Shown here: in pieces, positions 55,092 to 63,684 of the stretch
Position numbering within the stretch: position 1 is the stretch's first letter
How the letters are laid out: the number at the start of each line of letters is the position of its first letter
Assembly: GCF_030733685.1 (NCBI RefSeq)
Contig: NZ_JASHIM010000004.1
Span: 124,001-188,000, forward strand
Direction of reading: 5' to 3'
Length of the DNA: 64,000 bases
Source: Roseovarius sp. MMSF_3281
GTDB lineage: Bacteria > Pseudomonadota > Alphaproteobacteria > Rhodobacterales > Rhodobacteraceae
Translations under genes and position numbers: made by a program
Notes under the pieces: model-generated
Database searches by the model: none
What the model was told of the DNA's origin: nothing
The model's input: the letters and a program-made list of their open reading frames with translations, nothing else

Positions 55092-56450
55092 ATGAGCGAT
55101 CCAACCATCATCACCGCCATCTCCGTCGGCGTGACCATCCTGTTCATGCTTGGCGTGCCGGTCTTTCTGGTTATCGGCTACTGGGTGATCGGCATGTCCT
55201 TCCTGCTGGACCTGCCGCTCGACAATATCGGCGCGGCACTGGCCGATGTCTTTACCGATGGCTTCGCCCTGCTGGCGATGCCGCTTTTCATCCTGACCGG
55301 AGACCTCATCAACCGCTCCGGCATCGCCCGGCGCCTGTCGGATTTCGCCTATGCCTGCCTTGGCTGGATTCGCGGCGGGCTTGCCATGGCCTCGCTGGGG
55401 GCTTGCGGGCTTTTTGCCGCTATTTCGGGGTCGAACTCGGCCACCACGGCCACCATCGGCTCGATGCTGCACCCGGAAATGGTCAAGGGCGGCTACGACG
55501 AACGGTTTTCGGCGGCCACGGCGGCGGCGGGCGGCACGGTGGGCATCATCATCCCGCCCTCCATCATCTTCATTGTCTACGGGTTCCTCCTCAACCTCCC
55601 GATTTCCGACCTCTTCGTCGCCGGGATCATCCCCGGGTCGCTGATGGTGGGTGGCATGATGTTTGCCTGCTTCCTCATCTGCTGGCGCAACGGCTGGGGC
55701 TACCTGATCGCCCTCAGCCCGCTGCGCGTGATCAAAACCGCCGTCGGCGCGTGGCTGGGCTTTTTCGCCATCGGCCTTGTCCTCTGGGGTATCTACACCG
55801 GTAAATTCTCGCCCACCGAGGCGGCGGGCGTGACCGTTGGCTTCTGTGTGATCGTCGGCTTCCTCTGCCTGCCCATTCACAAACTGATGGGGGCCAGGAA
55901 AGACGCCGAACTCTCCGAGAAATCGGTGGCCAGCATGCTGGTGGTCCAAGGCTTCAGCCCGATTGAACTGCCCTCGATCACCATGCGCTCGGCCCAGATC
56001 ACCGGTATCCTTGCCCCGCTGATCGCGGTCTCGGTGGTGATGCAGCAAATCCTGTCGGTCCTCGGCGCGCAGGAGGCGATCGGCGGCTTCGTGACCTCGA
56101 TGGGCGGCTATCACGCGGTGCTGTTCACCTCCATGGCCATCGTCTTTGTTTCGGGCATGGTGCTGGAAAGCCTACCGGTGACGATCATCTTGGCCCCAAT
56201 CCTCGCCCCTATCGCTCATGAGGTCGGGGTCGAGCCGGTGCAATTCGCGGTGGTCTTCCTTGTCGGTGCCTCCATCGGGTTCATCACGCCGCCCTATGGC
56301 CTGAACCTATACGTGGCCTCGGGGGTGACAGGTGTCCCGTATTTCAGGCTTTTGAAGTACACTGTGCCTTATTTGGTGGCACTGATTTCGGTGTGGCTTG
56401 TGATTGCCCTTGTGCCTGAGTTATCGACGGCGCTGCTACCGAACAGATAA
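55092..56450 (+). CDS. TRAP large permease
   Basis: 452 aa, DctM family. It has ISGSNSATTATIGSMLHPEM, IIIPPSIIFIVYGFLL, FSPTEAAGVTVGFCVIVGF and FITPPYGLNLYVASG. It completes the TRAP system, and the IclR regulator follows after 13 bp. Confidence 0.92.
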   Translation: MSDPTIITAISVGVTILFMLGVPVFLVIGYWVIGMSFLLDLPLDNIGAALADVFTDGFALLAMPLFILTGDLINRSGIARRLSDFAYACLGWIRGGLAMASLGACGLFAAISGSNSATTATIGSMLHPEMVKGGYDERFSAATAAAGGTVGIIIPPSIIFIVYGFLLNLPISDLFVAGIIPGSLMVGGMMFACFLICWRNGWGYLIALSPLRVIKTAVGAWLGFFAIGLVLWGIYTGKFSPTEAAGVTVGFCVIVGFLCLPIHKLMGARKDAELSEKSVASMLVVQGFSPIELPSITMRSAQITGILAPLIAVSVVMQQILSVLGAQEAIGGFVTSMGGYHAVLFTSMAIVFVSGMVLESLPVTIILAPILAPIAHEVGVEPVQFAVVFLVGASIGFITPPYGLNLYVASGVTGVPYFRLLKYTVPYLVALISVWLVIALVPELSTALLPNR

Positions 56451-56463
56451 GAGTGGGTGATGC

Positions 56464-57243
56464 ATGGACGGGGATAAATCGGAAACCATACCAACCAACC
56501 TCAGGTTGCTCATGGTGATCGAAGAGATCGCCCGCGCGGGCGTTCCCGTCACGCCGACCGATGTGAACATGCACCTCGGTCTGCCCAAGCCGACCATTCA
56601 CCGCCTGTTCAACACGCTGGAGGAAGAGGGCTTCCTCCAGCGTGACCTTGATGGGCGGACCTATTCACCGGGGCCCCGCCTGCGCACCATGGCCGGCGGG
56701 GTGATATCCTCTCTACGCATCCGTACGGCACGGCAGGCCATCCTCAAACGCCTGAGCCGTGAAATCGGCGAGACCTGCAACATCGCCCTGCCGGATCGCG
56801 ATGCCATGACCTATCTGGAACGCGTCGAAACCGAATGGCCCCTGCGCATCCAGCTTCCCATCGGCACTCGCGTGCCCTTTTACTGCACCGCCAGCGGCAA
56901 GATGTACCTTAGCTCCTTGGCCCGCGCCCATGTGGTCAAATACCTTGAAAGCATCGACCTTGAGGCGAAAACCCCCAACACCCTGACCCAACATGACGAT
57001 CTTTTCGAAGAACTCCGCGTGATCCGCAAACAGGGCTATTCCCTCGACCGCGAGGAATTCATGCCCGACATGATCGCGCTTGCGGTGCCGATCATGGATA
57101 AGAACGACAGGCTCATGGCCACCTTGGCCTTCCACGCCCCGTCGCAGCGTATTTCCATCGACGAGGCACTGAATTATCTCGACGATATGCGCGCCGCCTC
57201 CAAGGATTTGTCCGAACTGGTCTCGGGCTCTGCCGATATCTAA
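56464..57243 (+). CDS. IclR-family transcriptional regulator
   Basis: 259 aa. The winged helix is at residues 12-75 (MVIEEIARAGVPVTPTDVNM, then LPKPTIHRLFNTLEEEGFL). An IclR effector domain follows, with CNIALPDRDAMTYLERV and YCTASGKMYLSSL. It probably controls the TRAP operon that it ends and the divergent GMC oxidoreductase gene, in response to the transported compound. Confidence 0.9.
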   Translation: MDGDKSETIPTNLRLLMVIEEIARAGVPVTPTDVNMHLGLPKPTIHRLFNTLEEEGFLQRDLDGRTYSPGPRLRTMAGGVISSLRIRTARQAILKRLSREIGETCNIALPDRDAMTYLERVETEWPLRIQLPIGTRVPFYCTASGKMYLSSLARAHVVKYLESIDLEAKTPNTLTQHDDLFEELRVIRKQGYSLDREEFMPDMIALAVPIMDKNDRLMATLAFHAPSQRISIDEALNYLDDMRAASKDLSELVSGSADI

Positions 57244-57291: not shown

Positions 57292-59268
57292 ATGGCCCGC
57301 ATGACGTTTTTCCGCTCGCTGTTCCAATCGGTCCGAATGCGCCTTCTGGTCATCGCGCTCTTGCCGATGCTGGTGCTCATGCCCCTGCTTCTGGGAGGGG
57401 CGATTGCCCGCTGGACGGGCCGGGTGGATGAACTTCTGATCACCAAGGTCAACGGCGACCTGACCATCGCCGATCAATACCTGCAACGCTTGCTGGAAAA
57501 TTCGGGTGAACGTCTGGATGCGCTGGCTCAATCGGCTAAGCTGCGCGATGTGATGAGCCGCCCCGCCGACCGCCGCGCCCACCTGCGCGCGGCGCGCAAC
57601 AACCTGGGGCTTGATTTTCTCTATCTCACCGATGGCACCACCGGCCCCGAGGGCCTGCGCCCCGGTGATTGGCCGGTGGTCGCAACCGCGCTTGACGGGG
57701 CGCAATGGGGCAGTGTCGTGGACATCATGGATCAAGACACCCTTACCGCGCTTGACCTTGGTCTTGGCCAACAGGCGGCGATCCAACTGGTCCCCACGCG
57801 CGCCGCCGTGCCCACCGACCGCACCGTCGAAGACCGCGGCATGGTGATCCACTCCGCCGCGCCCGTGGTCCTGCCCGATGGCCGCCCCGGCGCGCTTGTG
57901 GGGGGGCATCTTCTCAATCGCAACCTCGATTTCATCGACACCATCAACAACCTCGTCTACCGCGATCAAAGCCTGCCCGACGGCAGCCAAGGCACCGCCA
58001 CCCTGTTCCTTGAAGATGTCCGCGTCTCTACCAACGTGCGCCTTTTCGAGGATGTCCGCGCGCTGGGCACCCGCGTTTCTGCCGAGGTCCGCGCGCGGGT
58101 TCTGGGCGAGGGGCGCACATGGCTTGACCGGGCCTTCGTGGTCAACGATTGGTATATCTCGGCCTACCAACCCATCACCGACAGTTTCGGCAAGCGCGTC
58201 GGCATGCTCTACGTTGGCTTCCTCGAAACCCCGTTTCGCGAGGCGAAAACCCGCTCCGCCCTCACGATGGGCCTGATCTTTCTGGCCATTGCCGGGCTGT
58301 CTATTCCGATTTTCCTGCGCTGGGCCGGGCGCATCTTCGGCCCGCTGGAATCCATGACCAAAACCATCGCCCGCGTCGAAGGCGGCGATCTGGCGGCCCG
58401 CAACGGCCCCACCGGCGATAGCGGCGAGATTGCTCAGGTGGCGGGCCACCTAGACGACCTCCTTGACCAGGTCCAGGAACGCGACAAGCAATTGCGCGAC
58501 TGGGCCGAAAGCCTTGAACGCAAGGTCGAGGAACGCACCCAAGACCTGCGCGAGGCGAACCGCAAGCTCGAAGACACCACCGAGCAACTCATCATGTCCG
58601 AAAAACTGGCCACCGTGGGCGAAATCACCGCCAGCGTCGCCCATGAAATCAACAATCCCGTGGCCGTGATCCAAGGCAATCTGGATGTCGCCCGTAGCCT
58701 CCTGGCCGAGGCCGAGGCGGAAAAGGTCAAGACCGAGTTCAAATTGATCGACGATCAAATCTACCGCATCGGGGTGATCGTCTCGAAACTCCTGCAGTTC
58801 GCCCGCCCCGAGGAATACTCGGGCGAAGGCGCGCTGATCTATCCTGCCGATGTGGTCCGCGATTGCCTTGTGCTGACCGCGCACCAGACCGAGAAGGCGG
58901 GCGTCGAGGTCACGACCGATTTCCAAAGCGACCGGCAGGTTGCGATCTCGCGTACCGAGCTACAGCAGGTGATCGTCAACCTGACCATCAACGCCGTCCA
59001 TGCCATGCCTGACGGCGGGGATTTGCAGATCACGGTTTCTGATGCCGGTGGCATGGTCCGGGTCGTGGTGTCAGATACCGGGCGCGGTATCGCGCCGGAT
59101 GTCCTCAAGCGCATTTTCGACCCGTTCTTTACCACCAAACAGGCCGAAGGCACCGGCCTCGGCCTGTCGATCAGTCAACGGTTGGTCTCCCGCGTGGGGG
59201 GCGAGATTTCGGCCAGTTCCACCCCGGGGCAGGGCAGCCGTTTCACCGTCACCCTGCCTGCCGCCTGA
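57292..59268 (+). CDS. Sensor histidine kinase with Cache-type sensor and HAMP domain
   Basis: 658 aa (ATG 57301 is an alternative start). A first membrane helix is at about 18-40, then a ~280-residue periplasmic sensor. A second helix leads to HAMP (RIFGPLESMTKTIARVEGGD), a coiled coil, HisKA with the phospho-histidine in ASVAHEINNPVAV, and HATPase with NAVHAMPDGG, DTGRGIAPDVL and GTGLGLSI. It is 56 bp upstream of dctB and has no response regulator of its own, so it may feed into the DctD-like protein. Confidence 0.9.
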   Translation: MARMTFFRSLFQSVRMRLLVIALLPMLVLMPLLLGGAIARWTGRVDELLITKVNGDLTIADQYLQRLLENSGERLDALAQSAKLRDVMSRPADRRAHLRAARNNLGLDFLYLTDGTTGPEGLRPGDWPVVATALDGAQWGSVVDIMDQDTLTALDLGLGQQAAIQLVPTRAAVPTDRTVEDRGMVIHSAAPVVLPDGRPGALVGGHLLNRNLDFIDTINNLVYRDQSLPDGSQGTATLFLEDVRVSTNVRLFEDVRALGTRVSAEVRARVLGEGRTWLDRAFVVNDWYISAYQPITDSFGKRVGMLYVGFLETPFREAKTRSALTMGLIFLAIAGLSIPIFLRWAGRIFGPLESMTKTIARVEGGDLAARNGPTGDSGEIAQVAGHLDDLLDQVQERDKQLRDWAESLERKVEERTQDLREANRKLEDTTEQLIMSEKLATVGEITASVAHEINNPVAVIQGNLDVARSLLAEAEAEKVKTEFKLIDDQIYRIGVIVSKLLQFARPEEYSGEGALIYPADVVRDCLVLTAHQTEKAGVEVTTDFQSDRQVAISRTELQQVIVNLTINAVHAMPDGGDLQITVSDAGGMVRVVVSDTGRGIAPDVLKRIFDPFFTTKQAEGTGLGLSISQRLVSRVGGEISASSTPGQGSRFTVTLPAA

Positions 59269-59324
59269 ACCGCGTGCGCCGAAAAACTGGTCAACCCCCG
59301 GCAAGCGTTGCTAAAACAAACGCC

Positions 59325-61088
59325 ATGACGTCCGACTCCCGCCTGCGCCTTGCGGTCATAGCCCTCTTTGTCACAGTCGTCGCCCTCTGTGCGGCGGGCA
59401 TTTGGCGCTATGGCTATGGCCAAGCGCTCGACCAGTTGGAAAAACAGGGGCGCGCCGACCTTGCGCTGGCTTCCGACCGCTTCACCGGCCAGTTGCGCCG
59501 CTATCAGGAACTTGCCGTGCTCATGGCCGACCACCCCACCTTGGCGCGGGTCTCGGCGGGGCGCGATGCGCAAGCGGCCCGTGCCCTCCTGCTCGAAGCG
59601 GCGGATAAAACCGGGGCCATGGGGCTGGCCTATGTCGATGCCAGCGGCCGTATTCTGGCCCAAGCGGGGAATGCCCCGCGCGACCCCGCGCAAATCCCCG
59701 CCTTCACCCGTGCGATCAACGGCGCGCTGGGCGTGGGCTATGGACGGTTGGGCGCACGGGGCGGCCGGGCCTACATCTACGCCGCGCCGGCCTTTGCAGC
59801 CGATGGGCTGGTGCGCGGCGCGCTGATCGTCCTGGTCGATATCGCCGAACTGGAATGGGACTGGATCGGTGGCCAGCCGCCTGTCTTCTTCACCGAGGAA
59901 AAGGACGAAATCTTTGTCTCCAACCGCTCCGAACTGCTTTTCTGGCGGGCCCGTGATGATGGCCCCGGCTACAGCCCTGCCAACGCCCCCGCGCCCGATT
60001 TCACCACCCATGACATCGCCGGTCACGAGGTCTGGAAAATCGACTGGGGCGATTACCTGCCCAAACGCGCGCTGCACCTGACGCAAGACCTGCCGGTAAT
60101 CGACATGACCGGCCATGTCCTGATCAACGTGGCCCCGGCCCGGCGCCTTGCCGCGCTGCAAAGCCTTATGTTCGCCGTGATCTGCCTCGCCTTCGGCGCG
60201 GTCATCCTGCAAATCACCGAACGCCGCCGCACGCTGGCCCGCGCCAATGCCCAGCTTGAACAGCGGGTCACCGAACGTACCGGGGAACTGACCGTCACCA
60301 ACCGCGCCCTGCGCCGCGAAATCCGCGAACGGCTCGAGGCCGAAGCGGCCCTGAAAAAGGCGCAGGACGACTTGGTGCAGGCGGGCAAGCTTTCGGCGCT
60401 TGGCCAAATCTCCGCCGGGATCAGCCACGAGTTGAACCAACCCCTGATGGCCATCCGCCAATACGCCGACAACGGCGCGCAATTCCTTGACCGCGCCAAG
60501 CCCGAGAAAGCCGGCGAAAACCTGACCCGCATTTCGGCGCTGGCCGCCCGCATGGCGCGGATCATCCGCAACCTGCGCGCCTTCGCCAAACAGGAAAGCG
60601 AGCCGGTGGCGCGGGTGGATATCGTCACCGTGATCGAACAGGTCCTCGAACTCTCCGAGGCGCGGCTCGAAGCCGATGGTGTCACCGTCCACTGGGCCCC
60701 GCCCCAGGCCCCGGTCTACGTCATGGGCGGCGAGGTCCGGCTTGGGCAGGTGCTCATCAACCTGATCTCAAACGCCGCCGACGCCATGTCGCACAGCCCC
60801 ACAAAGGAAATCAGCATCACCGTCACCCCGGGCAACCCGGTGGTGGTCGAAGTTCAGGATACCGGCCCCGGCATCGACGAGCCGGAAAAGATATTCGACC
60901 CCTTCTATTCCACCAAGGAGGTCGGCAGCACCGAAGGCATGGGCCTTGGCCTGTCGATCTCTTACGGCTTGGTGCAAAGCTTCGGCGGCGATATCAAGGG
61001 GCGCAACACGCCCCAGGGCGGCGCCGCCTTCCGCATCGAACTGGAAGCCGCCCTTGAAACACCCCCCGCGCAAGAGGCCGCCGAATGA
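59325..61088 (+). CDS. dctB: C4-dicarboxylate sensor kinase DctB
   Basis: 587 aa from ATG 59325. A membrane helix at the N terminus is followed by a periplasmic tandem-PAS (Cache) sensor with GYGRLGARGGRAYIYAAPAF, and a second helix near MFAVICLAFGAVIL. A coiled coil, HisKA with ISAGISHELNQPLMAIRQYA (the DctB-typical ELNQPL.AIR.YA) and HATPase with STEGMGLGLSISYG follow. It senses external succinate, fumarate or malate and phosphorylates DctD. The stop overlaps the dctD start (ATGA). Confidence 0.9.
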   Translation: MTSDSRLRLAVIALFVTVVALCAAGIWRYGYGQALDQLEKQGRADLALASDRFTGQLRRYQELAVLMADHPTLARVSAGRDAQAARALLLEAADKTGAMGLAYVDASGRILAQAGNAPRDPAQIPAFTRAINGALGVGYGRLGARGGRAYIYAAPAFAADGLVRGALIVLVDIAELEWDWIGGQPPVFFTEEKDEIFVSNRSELLFWRARDDGPGYSPANAPAPDFTTHDIAGHEVWKIDWGDYLPKRALHLTQDLPVIDMTGHVLINVAPARRLAALQSLMFAVICLAFGAVILQITERRRTLARANAQLEQRVTERTGELTVTNRALRREIRERLEAEAALKKAQDDLVQAGKLSALGQISAGISHELNQPLMAIRQYADNGAQFLDRAKPEKAGENLTRISALAARMARIIRNLRAFAKQESEPVARVDIVTVIEQVLELSEARLEADGVTVHWAPPQAPVYVMGGEVRLGQVLINLISNAADAMSHSPTKEISITVTPGNPVVVEVQDTGPGIDEPEKIFDPFYSTKEVGSTEGMGLGLSISYGLVQSFGGDIKGRNTPQGGAAFRIELEAALETPPAQEAAE

Positions 61089-62326
61089 CGCCCGAACCGC
61101 ATAAGATCCTGCTGGTCGATGATGACGCCGCCGTGCGCGAGGCGCTGACCCAAACGCTGGAACTCAACGATCTCACCCCGGTCCCCTGCGGCTCCTTCAT
61201 CGAGGCCAAGGATCACATCGCCCGCGATTTCGAAGGCGTGATCCTGTCGGATATCCGCATGCCCGGGCGCGATGGGTTCCACCTGTTGCGCCACACCCAT
61301 GGGCTTGATCCCGACTTGCCGGTGATCCTGCTGACCGGCGAGGGCGATATTCCCATGGCGGTCGAGGCCATGGCACAGGGCGCCTTCGACTTCCTTGAAA
61401 AACCATGCGCACCCGATGACCTGTTGCCGGTGCTGCATCGCGCCTTGCAAACCCGGGCGCTGGTCATGGAAAACCGCCGCCTCAAGCATCAGCTTGAAAC
61501 CGGCGATCCGGCGGCGCGCATGCTTTTTGGCACCTCGCAACTGGCTGAAGGGCTGCGCGCCCGGGTCCGTGCCGTGGCCCGCGCGGGGGCCGAGGTTCTG
61601 GTCACCGGCCCGCCCGGCGCAGGGGTGTCCAAGGTGGCCGAGGTCATCCACCTGATAACCCCGAACGCCTCGGGCCCTTTCGTCAAACGGCCCGCCGCCT
61701 CGCTGGATGTTGCCGCGCTCAACGACAGCCTTGCCGCGGCCCAGACCGGCAGCCTGTTCCTCGATGAAATCGCGGCCCTTCCCGATGCCGCGCAATACAG
61801 CCTTCTGGAACGGCTTGAGGCCGGTGGCACCGCCCGGGTGATCGCCGGCACAACCTCCGATCTGGCCGCCGCCGCCCAAGAAGGCCGCTTCAACGCCGAA
61901 CTTTACTACCGCCTTGACGTCATGCCGGTACGCATTCCGGCCCTCTCGGAACGGCCCGAGGATATCCCGGTGCTGTTTCGCCACTACGTGGCGCAAGCCG
62001 CCGAACAGGCGGGCCTGCCCACGCCGGAAATCCCGCCTGAGCATCTTTCGAACCTCATGGCGCAGGATTGGCCGGGCAACGCCCGGTCCCTCATGTCGGC
62101 GGCGATGCGCTTTACCCTTGGTATGCCCGAAGAAACCCAGGGCGCCGCCGAACTGGGCCTTGCCGAACAAATGGCCCGCGTCGAACGCTCGCTTCTGGCC
62201 GCGGCACTTGGCCGTCAGAACGGCCGCGCCGCGCAGGCGGCCAAGGCCCTCAAGCTGCCGCGCAAGACGTTTTACGACAAACTGGCCCGCTACGGTTTGA
62301 AACCCGAGGATTTCAAACGCGGCTGA
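61085..62326 (+). CDS. dctD: DctD-like response regulator with degenerate AAA+ domain
   Basis: 413 aa. The receiver has phospho-site D56 (LSDIRMPG) and K106. The AAA+ region is abnormal. Walker A reads GPPGAGVSK (175-183), so the lysine is displaced. The stretch from GPFVKRPAASL (about 197) to Walker B GSLFLDEI (222-229) is some 30 residues shorter than in other DctD proteins and lacks the GAFTGA loop that contacts sigma-54. The C-terminal Fis-type helix-turn-helix (AAKALKLPRKTFYDKLARYG) is intact. It probably binds upstream of dctP but may not activate sigma-54 promoters, like the Rhodobacter capsulatus NtrC. Confidence 0.88.
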   Translation: MTPEPHKILLVDDDAAVREALTQTLELNDLTPVPCGSFIEAKDHIARDFEGVILSDIRMPGRDGFHLLRHTHGLDPDLPVILLTGEGDIPMAVEAMAQGAFDFLEKPCAPDDLLPVLHRALQTRALVMENRRLKHQLETGDPAARMLFGTSQLAEGLRARVRAVARAGAEVLVTGPPGAGVSKVAEVIHLITPNASGPFVKRPAASLDVAALNDSLAAAQTGSLFLDEIAALPDAAQYSLLERLEAGGTARVIAGTTSDLAAAAQEGRFNAELYYRLDVMPVRIPALSERPEDIPVLFRHYVAQAAEQAGLPTPEIPPEHLSNLMAQDWPGNARSLMSAAMRFTLGMPEETQGAAELGLAEQMARVERSLLAAALGRQNGRAAQAAKALKLPRKTFYDKLARYGLKPEDFKRG

Positions 62327-62330
62327 CCCA

Positions 62331-62426
62331 CCAAGGTCTTTCGAAACACCTTGGCCAAGCGCCTTGCAAGGCGCTTTCCGACGCGATTTCGAAATCGCGT
62401 GGCCCAAGGCTTTTCGAAAAGCCTTG
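62331..62426. repeat. Four tandem palindromes with ~24-bp period
   Basis: Perfect palindromes are AAGCGCCTTGCAAGGCGCTT (62357-62376), ACGCGATTTCGAAATCGCGT (62381-62400) and a 22-bp one built on GGCTTTTCGAAAAGCC (62405-62426). They are preceded by an imperfect 24-bp one with CCAAGG/CCTTGG ends (62331-62354). Centres are spaced 24, 24 and 25 bp. The array begins 5 bp after the dctD stop and may act as terminator hairpins or as a protein-binding array. Confidence 0.75.
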
Positions 62427-62445
62427 CCCAAGCGGGCATGAGTCG

Positions 62446-62494
62446 TGTGCGGAAATCCGCACAGTTTGCTGAAATACCGTGCGAGATCCCGCAC
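62446..62494. promoter_or_regulatory. Two GTGCG-N6-CGCAC dyads, probable DctD sites
   Basis: Site 1 (62446-62463) is the perfect palindrome TGTGCGGA-aa-TCCGCACA. Site 2 (62479-62494) is GTGCGAGATCCCGCAC with one mismatch. Centres are 32 bp apart, about three helical turns. They lie ~190-235 bp upstream of the dctP start, the usual distance for enhancer sites of DctD/NtrC proteins. Confidence 0.65.
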
Positions 62495-62638
62495 AATGCC
62501 GCCATGCAGCATCGCCGCCCGGTTGGGTATTTTGATATATCCTGTTGAATTCATTTAGGATTTCAAAATCTTCCATTTTTTTATCGCCATGACTTGAGCG
62601 AATAGCCGCCATGCGAAAATCTCTGCCCGTCGCGCCCC

Positions 62639-62654
62639 TGGGGCGCTGATTGCA
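62639..62654 (+). promoter_or_regulatory. Possible sigma-54 (-24/-12) promoter of dctP
   Basis: TGGGGCGCTGATTGCA matches TGG..C-N5-TTGCA with correct GG-to-GC spacing. Transcription would start about 62665, leaving a very short leader before the ribosome site GGGAGGAGA and the ATG at 62683. The match at CA of the -24 box is lost, so support is moderate. Confidence 0.35.
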
Positions 62655-62682: not shown

Positions 62683-63684
62683 ATGAAATTCCTGACAGCC
62701 GCTGCCACGGCGCTGGCCCTGAGTGTTTCGGCCACCGCCGTTTCCGCTGCCTGTGACGATGGTGAAATCGTCGTCAAGTTCAGCCACGTCACCAACACCG
62801 ACAAGCACCCCAAGGGCATCGCCGCCTCGCTGCTGGAAAAGCGCGTGAACGAGGAGATGGACGGCAAGATGTGCATGGAGGTCTTCCCGAACTCCACGCT
62901 CTACAACGACAACAAGGTGCTCGAAGCCATGCTTCAGGGCGATGTGCAACTCGCCGCGCCCTCGCTGTCGAAGTTCGAGAAGTTCACCAAGCAGTTCCGC
63001 CTGTTTGACCTGCCCTTCATGTTCAAGGACATCAACGCCGTGGATGCTTTCCAGGCCTCCGACAACGGTCAGGCCCTGCTCGATTCCATGCAGCGCCGCG
63101 GCCTGCAGGGGCTCGCCTACTGGCACAACGGCATGAAGCAGATGTCGGCCAACGTGCCGCTGATCGAACCCTCGGATGCCGAAGGCCTCAAGTTCCGCGT
63201 GCAGTCCTCCGACGTGCTTGTCGCGCAAATGGAAGCCATCGGCGGCAGCCCGCAGAAAATGGCCTTCTCCGAGGTTTACGGCGCGCTGCAACAGGGTGTT
63301 GTCGACGGTCAGGAAAACACCTGGTCCAACATCTACGGCAAGAAGTTCTTCGAGGTGCAGGACGGGATCACCGAGACCAACCACGGCATCATCGACTATC
63401 TTGTCGTGACCAACATCGACTGGCTCAACGGTCTGGACGAGGACGTGCGCGAGCAGTTCCTCACCATCCTTGACGAAGTGACCACCACCCGCAACAGCGA
63501 GTCGGCCAAGGTCAACCAGGAGGCCAAGCAGGCGATCGTCGATGCCGGTGGCGAGGTGCGTCAGCTGACCGCCGAACAGCGCGCGGCGTGGGTCGAAGTG
63601 ATGAAGCCCGTCTGGGAGCAATTCAAGGATGACGTCGGCCAGGAAAACATCGACGCCGCGCAAGAGATCAACGCCAGCATGTAA
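62683..63684 (+). CDS. dctP: C4-dicarboxylate TRAP binding protein DctP
   Basis: 333 aa from ATG 62683, with GGGAGGAGA upstream and a signal peptide ending VSA-ACDDG. It follows the Rhodobacter capsulatus DctP pattern: FSHVTN, VFPNSTLYNDNKVLEAMLQG, APSLSKFEKFT, LAYWHNGMKQMSAN and LKFRVQSSDVL with the carboxylate-binding arginine, then QENTWSNIY. It binds malate, succinate or fumarate in the periplasm. The position right after dctBD supports the substrate. Confidence 0.92.
   Translation: MKFLTAAATALALSVSATAVSAACDDGEIVVKFSHVTNTDKHPKGIAASLLEKRVNEEMDGKMCMEVFPNSTLYNDNKVLEAMLQGDVQLAAPSLSKFEKFTKQFRLFDLPFMFKDINAVDAFQASDNGQALLDSMQRRGLQGLAYWHNGMKQMSANVPLIEPSDAEGLKFRVQSSDVLVAQMEAIGGSPQKMAFSEVYGALQQGVVDGQENTWSNIYGKKFFEVQDGITETNHGIIDYLVVTNIDWLNGLDEDVREQFLTILDEVTTTRNSESAKVNQEAKQAIVDAGGEVRQLTAEQRAAWVEVMKPVWEQFKDDVGQENIDAAQEINASM

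Follow-up and report, generated by a model that had tools for sequence, protein, structure and literature searches.

DctD of S. meliloti is a sigma-54 activator, and NtrC of R. capsulatus acts from distal tandem sites. These two regulators serve here as reference points for a dctB-dctD-dctP locus in a 64,000-nucleotide stretch (hereafter the window) of the genome of Roseovarius sp. MMSF_3281, in which the dctD-like response regulator lacks the GAFTGA loop. Deletion of this loop has been described for NtrC: the available part of PMC10274813 discusses it, together with the ATP needs, in Caulobacter and Rhodobacterales NtrC, reports sigma-70 action, states that R. capsulatus NtrC needs ATP binding, and cites, for the latter protein, Bowman and Kranz 1998. 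Other NtrC-family relatives without a working GAFTGA motif include HupR, TyrR and DhaR, which are reported to be sigma-70 dependent (PMC3162934), and VpsR, which is reported to be ATP-independent (PMC10274813); these regulators, however, have other input domains or signals, and none of them is a DctB-DctD pair with a DctD palindrome. No prior report of a loop-less DctD was found in the literature searched, which covered few subscription papers. The best reading of our data is that DctD goes a step beyond R. capsulatus NtrC, in that the ATP-site lysine and an arginine finger are lost besides the loop. We consider it rather probable that this ATPase-dead, enhancer-bound protein activates the sigma-70 polymerase at dctP in a marine, Roseovarius-like host.

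Profile searches against Pfam identify the dctD product as an NtrC-type response regulator of the NtrC family with the domain order receiver, AAA+ and Fis-type helix-turn-helix (HTH). The same order and the same dctB-dctD pairing are found in S. meliloti, but there GAFTGA, the Walker A lysine and FREDLYYR are retained, whereas all three are lost or altered in the window protein. An earlier note on this DNA, made from the letters alone, had described a DctD-like regulator that lacks GAFTGA and whose Walker A reads GPPGAGVSK; the alignment confirms this description, with valine in place of the lysine. The shortened segment, which the note put at about 30 residues, is in fact 19 residues short: the interval between Walker A and Walker B has 19 gap columns relative to the intact relative L129, and a hand count on the S. 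meliloti letters gives the same figure. The note had missed a further loss, that of the first arginine finger (N270). The Sigma54_activat profile is broken in DctD (best stretch residues 216-282 on profile positions 89-167), and AAA_lid_14 is present. Bacterial enhancer-binding proteins in the strict sense combine GAFTGA, a Walker A lysine with arginine fingers, and sigma-54 with a -24/-12 promoter; none of these three features is found in full for DctD. Set beside R. capsulatus NtrC, DctD shares the loop deletion and the intact receiver and HTH, but not the intact ATP-binding P-loop, and the NtrC proteins compared keep the Walker A lysine (GESGTGKS). The precedent of R. capsulatus NtrC, to which the note had appealed, thus holds for loop loss with sigma-70 activation and fails at the nucleotide, since ATP binding is reported to be needed there and DctD is without the lysine and the first finger.

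In an AlphaFold2 model of DctD built from 31 sequences (mean predicted local distance difference test score 84.5, predicted template modelling (TM) score 0.52), strand 199-203, helix 209-218 and the Walker B strand 223-227 of the AAA+ core follow one another directly. The nearest solved structures are Brucella NtrX (5m7p) and then NtrC1 (1ny5), FleQ (8p53) and VpsR (7v2b), with TM-scores of about 0.45 for the whole chain; isolated AAA+ domains, that of FlrC among them, reach 0.74 on the target. The NtrX proteins compared also lack GAFTGA, but they keep the Walker A lysine (GPAGSGKE) and serve another regulon. The top NCBIfam profile is PgtA (NF047793), to which residues 2-411 align over positions 2-414 of 414; the score of 278 bits falls short of the 650-bit cut-off, and membership of DctD in this family was rejected by profile comparison only.

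The motif losses are not confined to the window. Two sets of relatives were compared: the best 80 of 457 matches in named genome contigs (Roseovarius, Ruegeria, Tateyamaria, Leisingera and others), which together with the window protein make 81 sequences; and a larger set of 135 rows, equal to 125 distinct sequences, in which some genes were fetched twice and some genomes came from two collections (doubled rows L105/L155, L111/L154, L113/L156 and L119/L153) and from which L125-L139 were excluded. All 81 sequences are without the loop in the interval from Walker A to Walker B, and in each of them V, I or L replaces the Walker A lysine, the string GxxGxG[VI]SK being common; a loose GAFTGA-like match occurs only in row L058, at residue 269, which belongs to the arginine-finger segment and not to the loop. 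In the larger set the Walker A lysine is kept in none of the 135 rows, the position being hydrophobic or T/N/S in every one, and the first arginine finger is likewise at 0/135. The second finger is present in 119 rows, the Walker B aspartate in 128 and glutamate in 120, the receiver aspartate in 134, and both the sensor II arginine and the receiver lysine in 135; among the 81 sequences, Walker B is additionally lost in L019-type rows (LEDV) and a few others. Averaged over pairs, identity peaks in the HTH (0.78), followed by the lid (0.745) and the receiver (0.743), and the missing-loop segment is the lowest of the seven segments (0.433). These identities and residue counts argue that DctD is kept under maintenance despite its motif losses, and the complete loss of the Walker A lysine and first finger in a group that keeps receiver, lid and HTH was counted in favour of a sigma-70 activator. 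The note's descriptions of the receiver and HTH as intact and of the degeneration as possibly lineage-wide are both upheld, and a local sequencing error, which it had named as a possible undoing of its claim, is excluded because the orthologues are in the same state.

One could also regard dctD as a decaying pseudogene, given the loss of several catalytic residues and an internal stop in four DctD matches (G009, G036, G112 and G133). The window gene, however, is an open frame, mean column identity across 31 DctD orthologues is 78%, receiver and sensor II residues are near-invariant over the 135 rows, and the palindromic sites upstream of dctP are conserved in parallel; we regard decay as extremely unlikely. 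The single stop codon inside each of the four matches (all at 56% identity or more; L121 in G009) may be an error, an early stop or an end effect.

The region between dctD and dctP was obtained in 133 of 150 loci, the 17 others being 12 without a dctP match in the stretch and 5 with dctP not downstream. A pair of palindromes of the form TGTGCG-N6-CGCACA, 31-34 bp apart, is present in 129 of these 133 loci (32 bp in 75, 33 bp in 49), and both palindromes have at most three mismatches in 121 loci, against 3 of 2660 regions shuffled by single bases. For the promoter analysis identical downstream sequences were collapsed (129 to 119), and 115 with at least 53% identity were used. In 100 of the 115 loci a TTG lies at 105-109 bp, measured from the centre of site 2 (other 5-bp windows: mean 10.0, maximum 34), and 72 have TTGA[GC] there (mean 0.4, maximum 3); in the hexamer 17 bp beyond this -35 element the last base, a column not used in the selection, is T in 89% of the 100 loci. 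By sequence, this is the layout of the R. capsulatus NtrC type, in which tandem sites precede a -35/-10 promoter by more than 100 bp.

The upstream sites resemble those of sigma-54-dependent relatives, and the promoter does not. S. meliloti 1021 has the same 18-bp palindrome, as TGTGCGGATTTCCGCACA, beside dctB and a weaker second site 33 bp away, but a perfect -24/-12 element, TGGCACGCATGTTGC, follows 84 bp from the site, where the Roseobacter group has a -35/-10 instead; Azospirillum argentinense combines a perfect site of this palindrome with a perfect -24/-12, TGGCACACCGCTTGC, likewise 84 bp on (distances counted by hand in both, the records being unannotated there). Sigma-54 promoter scores over the 115 loci of the Roseobacter group are no better than those of shuffled sequences (9.67 versus 9.56). 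The AT-rich stretch between site 2 and the -35 element holds a word resembling an integration host factor (IHF) site at about +51 to +63. This word occurs with at most one mismatch in 53 of the 115 loci, where 12.8 would be expected, and 32 of these occurrences fall into a single 5-bp bin, although kinship may inflate these figures; the exact consensus is found in 6 (0.8 expected) and a looser strict pattern in 17 (0.8 expected). The evidence for an IHF site at this place is suggestive only. A short hairpin just after the -10 element has a best stem of at least 7 in 56 of 114 loci, as against 18% of shuffles; its arms vary in other loci yet still pair, and it is perhaps a leader stabiliser.

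Instead of activating dctP, DctD might now repress its promoter or compete there. Some sigma-70 promoters are reported to be repressed by GAFTGA-less Caulobacter NtrC (PMC10274813), and activation of dctP by DctD is itself only inferred. The sites, however, precede the -35 element by about 107-148 bp at a conserved spacing, which is an activator-like layout, and mutant fitness in R. pomeroyi lends activation indirect support. According to the available part of PMC10041152, the mutant in SPO2630, annotated as C4-dicarboxylate TRAP (tripartite ATP-independent periplasmic) regulatory protein and, from gene order, the likely orthologue of the window DctD, shows a fitness change of -0.25, and the sign is the same in mutants of the transporter genes dctQ SPO2627 (-0.17, -0.65) and dctM SPO2626 (-0.13, -0.12). 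We judge repression or competition very unlikely.

None of the three sigma-54 profiles PF04552, PF04963 and TIGR02395, each of which is positive in 4 of 14 control genomes, finds a match in the genome to which the window belongs (G000; 4.30 Mb, 61 contigs, 99.97% complete), and the motif G[AS]F[TS]G[AS] occurs in 0 of the 8 NtrC-family proteins of G000. With neither RpoN nor a GAFTGA regulator present, dctP cannot depend on sigma-54 here. That DctD should not remodel sigma-54 polymerase, as the note had proposed, therefore stands on firmer ground than was claimed, and the opposite outcome that it had allowed for, strict dependence on sigma-54, is ruled out for G000, which lacks the sigma factor. 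The other seven NtrC-family regulators (L001-L006 and L008) are also without GAFTGA; L001 reads GAFHGA, and L008 has lost Walker B too.

A case for continued sigma-54 dependence of dctP, through DctD or some other intact activator, could be built on TGGGGCGCTGATTGC at 62639-62653, which has GG-N10-GC; on the presence of rpoN in 5 of 16 named genomes with a loop-less DctD; and on a report that sigma-54 genes are influenced by some mutants of the loop-less NtrC of Caulobacter (PMC12421884, available part). This case is already contradicted in G000, and we give it almost no credence. The candidate promoter at 62639-62653 was rejected: it is the 3' arm of the leader hairpin, its upstream bases are unconserved in the aligned Roseovarius regions compared, and the window as a whole has 84 sigma-54-type matches against 84.06 in shuffles.

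A PF04552 match at E <=1e-3 occurs in 48 of the 149 genomes of the family (44 above the cut-off) and in 9 of the 60 of the genus (8 above the cut-off); 43 of the 149 were treated as rpoN-bearing, weak matches in G022, G075, G095, G110 and G115 being left out (G075 lies just above the cut-off). NtrC-family proteins were surveyed in 9 genomes without and 10 with rpoN, picked by rpoN state and assembly quality and with Clp-like or weak PF00158 matches excluded. A GAFTGA-type motif occurs in 0 of 50 proteins of the former and in 21 of 76 of the latter, and none of the 10 genomes with rpoN is without such a protein. This distribution stands beside the near-perfect co-occurrence of sigma-54 and GAFTGA proteins reported in PMC3162934, in the available part of which Jannaschia is among the exceptions. 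Six of the 10 rpoN-bearing genomes carry exactly one motif protein, and all six proteins begin VFI[TS]GESGTGKE and read GSFTGA; this protein may be AprX, which has been linked to rpoN (PMC11999139, available part).

NtrC, NtrX and DctD types without the loop are present in rpoN-bearing genomes as well. For DctD, the five named genomes with rpoN above the cut-off are R. pacificus, R. mucosus, R. pomeroyi SZCCDBG043, L. aquimarina and T. litoralis, and 12 fetched genomes with PF04552 also have a loop-less DctD (the matches in G027 and G031 are partial or broken). A rule that the loop was lost because the same genome lost rpoN therefore fails. From such loop-less regulators it seems that the regulators left sigma-54 before rpoN was lost, which suggests that uncoupling of regulators precedes, and does not follow, the loss of the sigma factor.

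The order of the losses was examined on two trees, one of all columns (59 rows) and one from which the Walker-to-Walker, finger and sensor II columns had been removed (45 rows); outgroup branches are long in these trees, and the tree program flags a warning. L129 (G004) and L138 (G017), which have an intact GAFTGA and intact ATPase residues and both come from genomes with rpoN, adjoin the loop-less group in both trees. Support for the loop-less group is 100/97 in both, and 96/84 and 94/90 when L129 and L138 are added. The first branch inside the group is L125 (G057), which has lost only the loop and already carries TTGATC at +107; the remaining rows are supported by 95/82 and 98/94. In L129 the palindrome pair is followed 60 bp on by TGGCATGGATTCTGC, a match that 3% of shuffles equal in score. 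Beyond L125, the Roseobacter group has lost the Walker A lysine and kept Walker B, while in a group of five rows (L126-L128, L134 and L139) Walker B, both fingers and sensor II are gone and the Walker A lysine is kept. The minimum numbers of changes on the 45-row tree, outgroups included, are one for the Walker A lysine, three for Walker B, two for the loop and one for the first finger, which places the first-finger loss before the split of the two branches. The trees thus order the losses: the loop went first and the first arginine finger second, after which one branch lost Walker A and the other Walker B.

Two plasmid relatives, one from Paracoccus sp. MA and one from Sphingomonas parapaucimobilis, are without the loop and keep GxGKE and FRxDL, which makes repeated loss of the loop probable. 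A separate group of six rows reads G[AS]FPGA in five and G-FAGS in one, and 2 of its 6 genomes have rpoN. In the five-row group dctP is divergent from dctBD, and L126 and L127 have paired palindromes, spaced by about 41 bp, near the divergent starts. Taken as ordered intermediates, these proteins would trace a change of sigma factor: from an intact activator with a -24/-12 promoter, through a loop-less, ATPase-intact form with a -35 element at +107, to two kinds of ATPase-damaged descendants. In such a series the enhancer stays constant while the promoter and the motor change.

We infer from these comparisons that DctD activates sigma-70 transcription. In the mechanism that we favour, DctB would phosphorylate DctD upon dicarboxylate sensing; DctD would bind the two palindromes through its HTH and would activate, rather than repress, the sigma-70-type housekeeping polymerase at the -35/-10 promoter 107 bp further on; and ATP hydrolysis would not be needed. 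The DNA between sites and promoter may be looped, perhaps with IHF. The AAA+ domain would have lost its function as a sigma-54 remodelling motor and would retain a role as a folded scaffold for assembly. A fuller version, which we hold only tentatively, is that phospho-DctD has turned an ancestral sigma-54 enhancer pair into an ATP-free sigma-70 enhancer that acts over 107 bp through an IHF-bent loop, with the AAA+ domain an inert scaffold, and that regulators left sigma-54 serially in this bacterial family, so that rpoN became losable. Either version makes testable the idea that an NtrC-family protein without ATPase activity can act on sigma-70 polymerase at a distance.

Several observations weigh against an ATPase-dead sigma-70 activator. 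GAFTGA-less Caulobacter NtrC is reported to require its Walker residues (PMC10274813, available part), and the influence of loop-less Caulobacter mutants on sigma-54 genes points the same way. Taken singly, palindromes in the window are no commoner than chance would give (4 against an expected 5.72), the window's -10 element is weak, and its dctP region is one of three among the 115 that score at least 12 for sigma-54, a value reached by 3.0% of shuffles. Counts over loci, rows and genomes ignore kinship. Finally, most or all rows still have Walker B, sensor II and the second finger, a possible sign of retained nucleotide binding. If so, DctD may work like R. capsulatus NtrC, as a sigma-70 activator that binds ATP without hydrolysing it, through Walker B, sensor II and perhaps K183, the lysine two positions after V181 in the common GxxGxG[VI]SK string; the Walker B and sensor II counts over the 135 rows and the ATP binding needed by R. 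capsulatus NtrC (PMC10274813) would fit. Against this stand the replacement of the Walker A lysine and the loss of the first arginine finger in all 135 rows, and the loss of Walker B as well in the L019-type and a few other rows. We consider ATP binding of this kind unlikely, and prefer the ATPase-dead activator. The coordinates of the features discussed are collected in Table 1.

Table 1. Features of the dctB-dctD-dctP locus, in window positions
Feature	Position	Strand	Details and evidence
dctB-like sensor kinase, partner by position	59274..61088	+	Overlaps dctD start; open reading frame (ORF) and Pfam
dctD-like response regulator, GAFTGA loop absent, ATPase residues partly lost	61085..62326	+	ATG start, ORF of 413 aa
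Response_reg receiver domain, residues 8-115	61106..61429	+	D56 and K106 intact; Pfam, orthologue columns
Walker A GPPGAGVS	61607..61630	+	Lysine position is V181; residue columns of alignment
Gap in place of GAFTGA loop	61655..61747	+	19 residues shorter than L129; alignment
Walker B LFLDE	61754..61768	+	D227 and E228 kept; alignment columns
Arginine-finger segment FNAELYYR	61889..61912	+	First Arg replaced by N270, second (R276) kept; alignment columns
Sensor II GNAR	62075..62086	+	R334 kept; alignment columns
Fis-type HTH (HTH_8), residues 363-403	62171..62293	+	Pfam
Upstream palindrome 1, TGTGCG-N6-CGCACA	62446..62463	+	Zero mismatches; pattern search
Upstream palindrome 2	62478..62495	+	One mismatch, 32 bp from palindrome 1; pattern search
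IHF-like word, midway, uncertain	62538..62550	-	Two mismatches in window; group position profile
-35 TTGAGC	62594..62599	+	107 bp from centre of palindrome 2; group alignment
-10 AAATCT, weak	62617..62622	+	17-bp spacer, last T conserved in group; group alignment
Predicted leader hairpin GCGCCCC-T-GGGGCGC	62632..62646	+	3' arm yields false sigma-54 match 62639-62653
dctP, TRAP solute-binding protein, presumed target	62683..63684	+	Profile matches

The order dctB, dctD, dctP in the window is that of the DctB-DctD lineage, and among the 70 fetched loci L095-L164 a dctB-like match stands beside dctD in 69 and a dctP match is found in 57. Directly before dctB the window has a second sensor kinase (57292-59268; sCache_3_3, HAMP, HisKA and HATPase domains). 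No close counterpart of it, defined as a match above 45% identity reaching the N-terminal part, was found in the 80 named-contig loci, which extend at most 4 kb upstream and in some cases less, and on this basis it was rejected as a standard component of the DctD system. DctD may receive signals from both kinases here, or this kinase may go with the preceding TRAP genes: upstream of the kinases, 55092-57243 holds another TRAP large permease gene (DctM) and then an IclR-type regulator. Just after dctD, at 62327-62445, there are several short palindromic stretches based on TTCGAAA, which also occur in L015.

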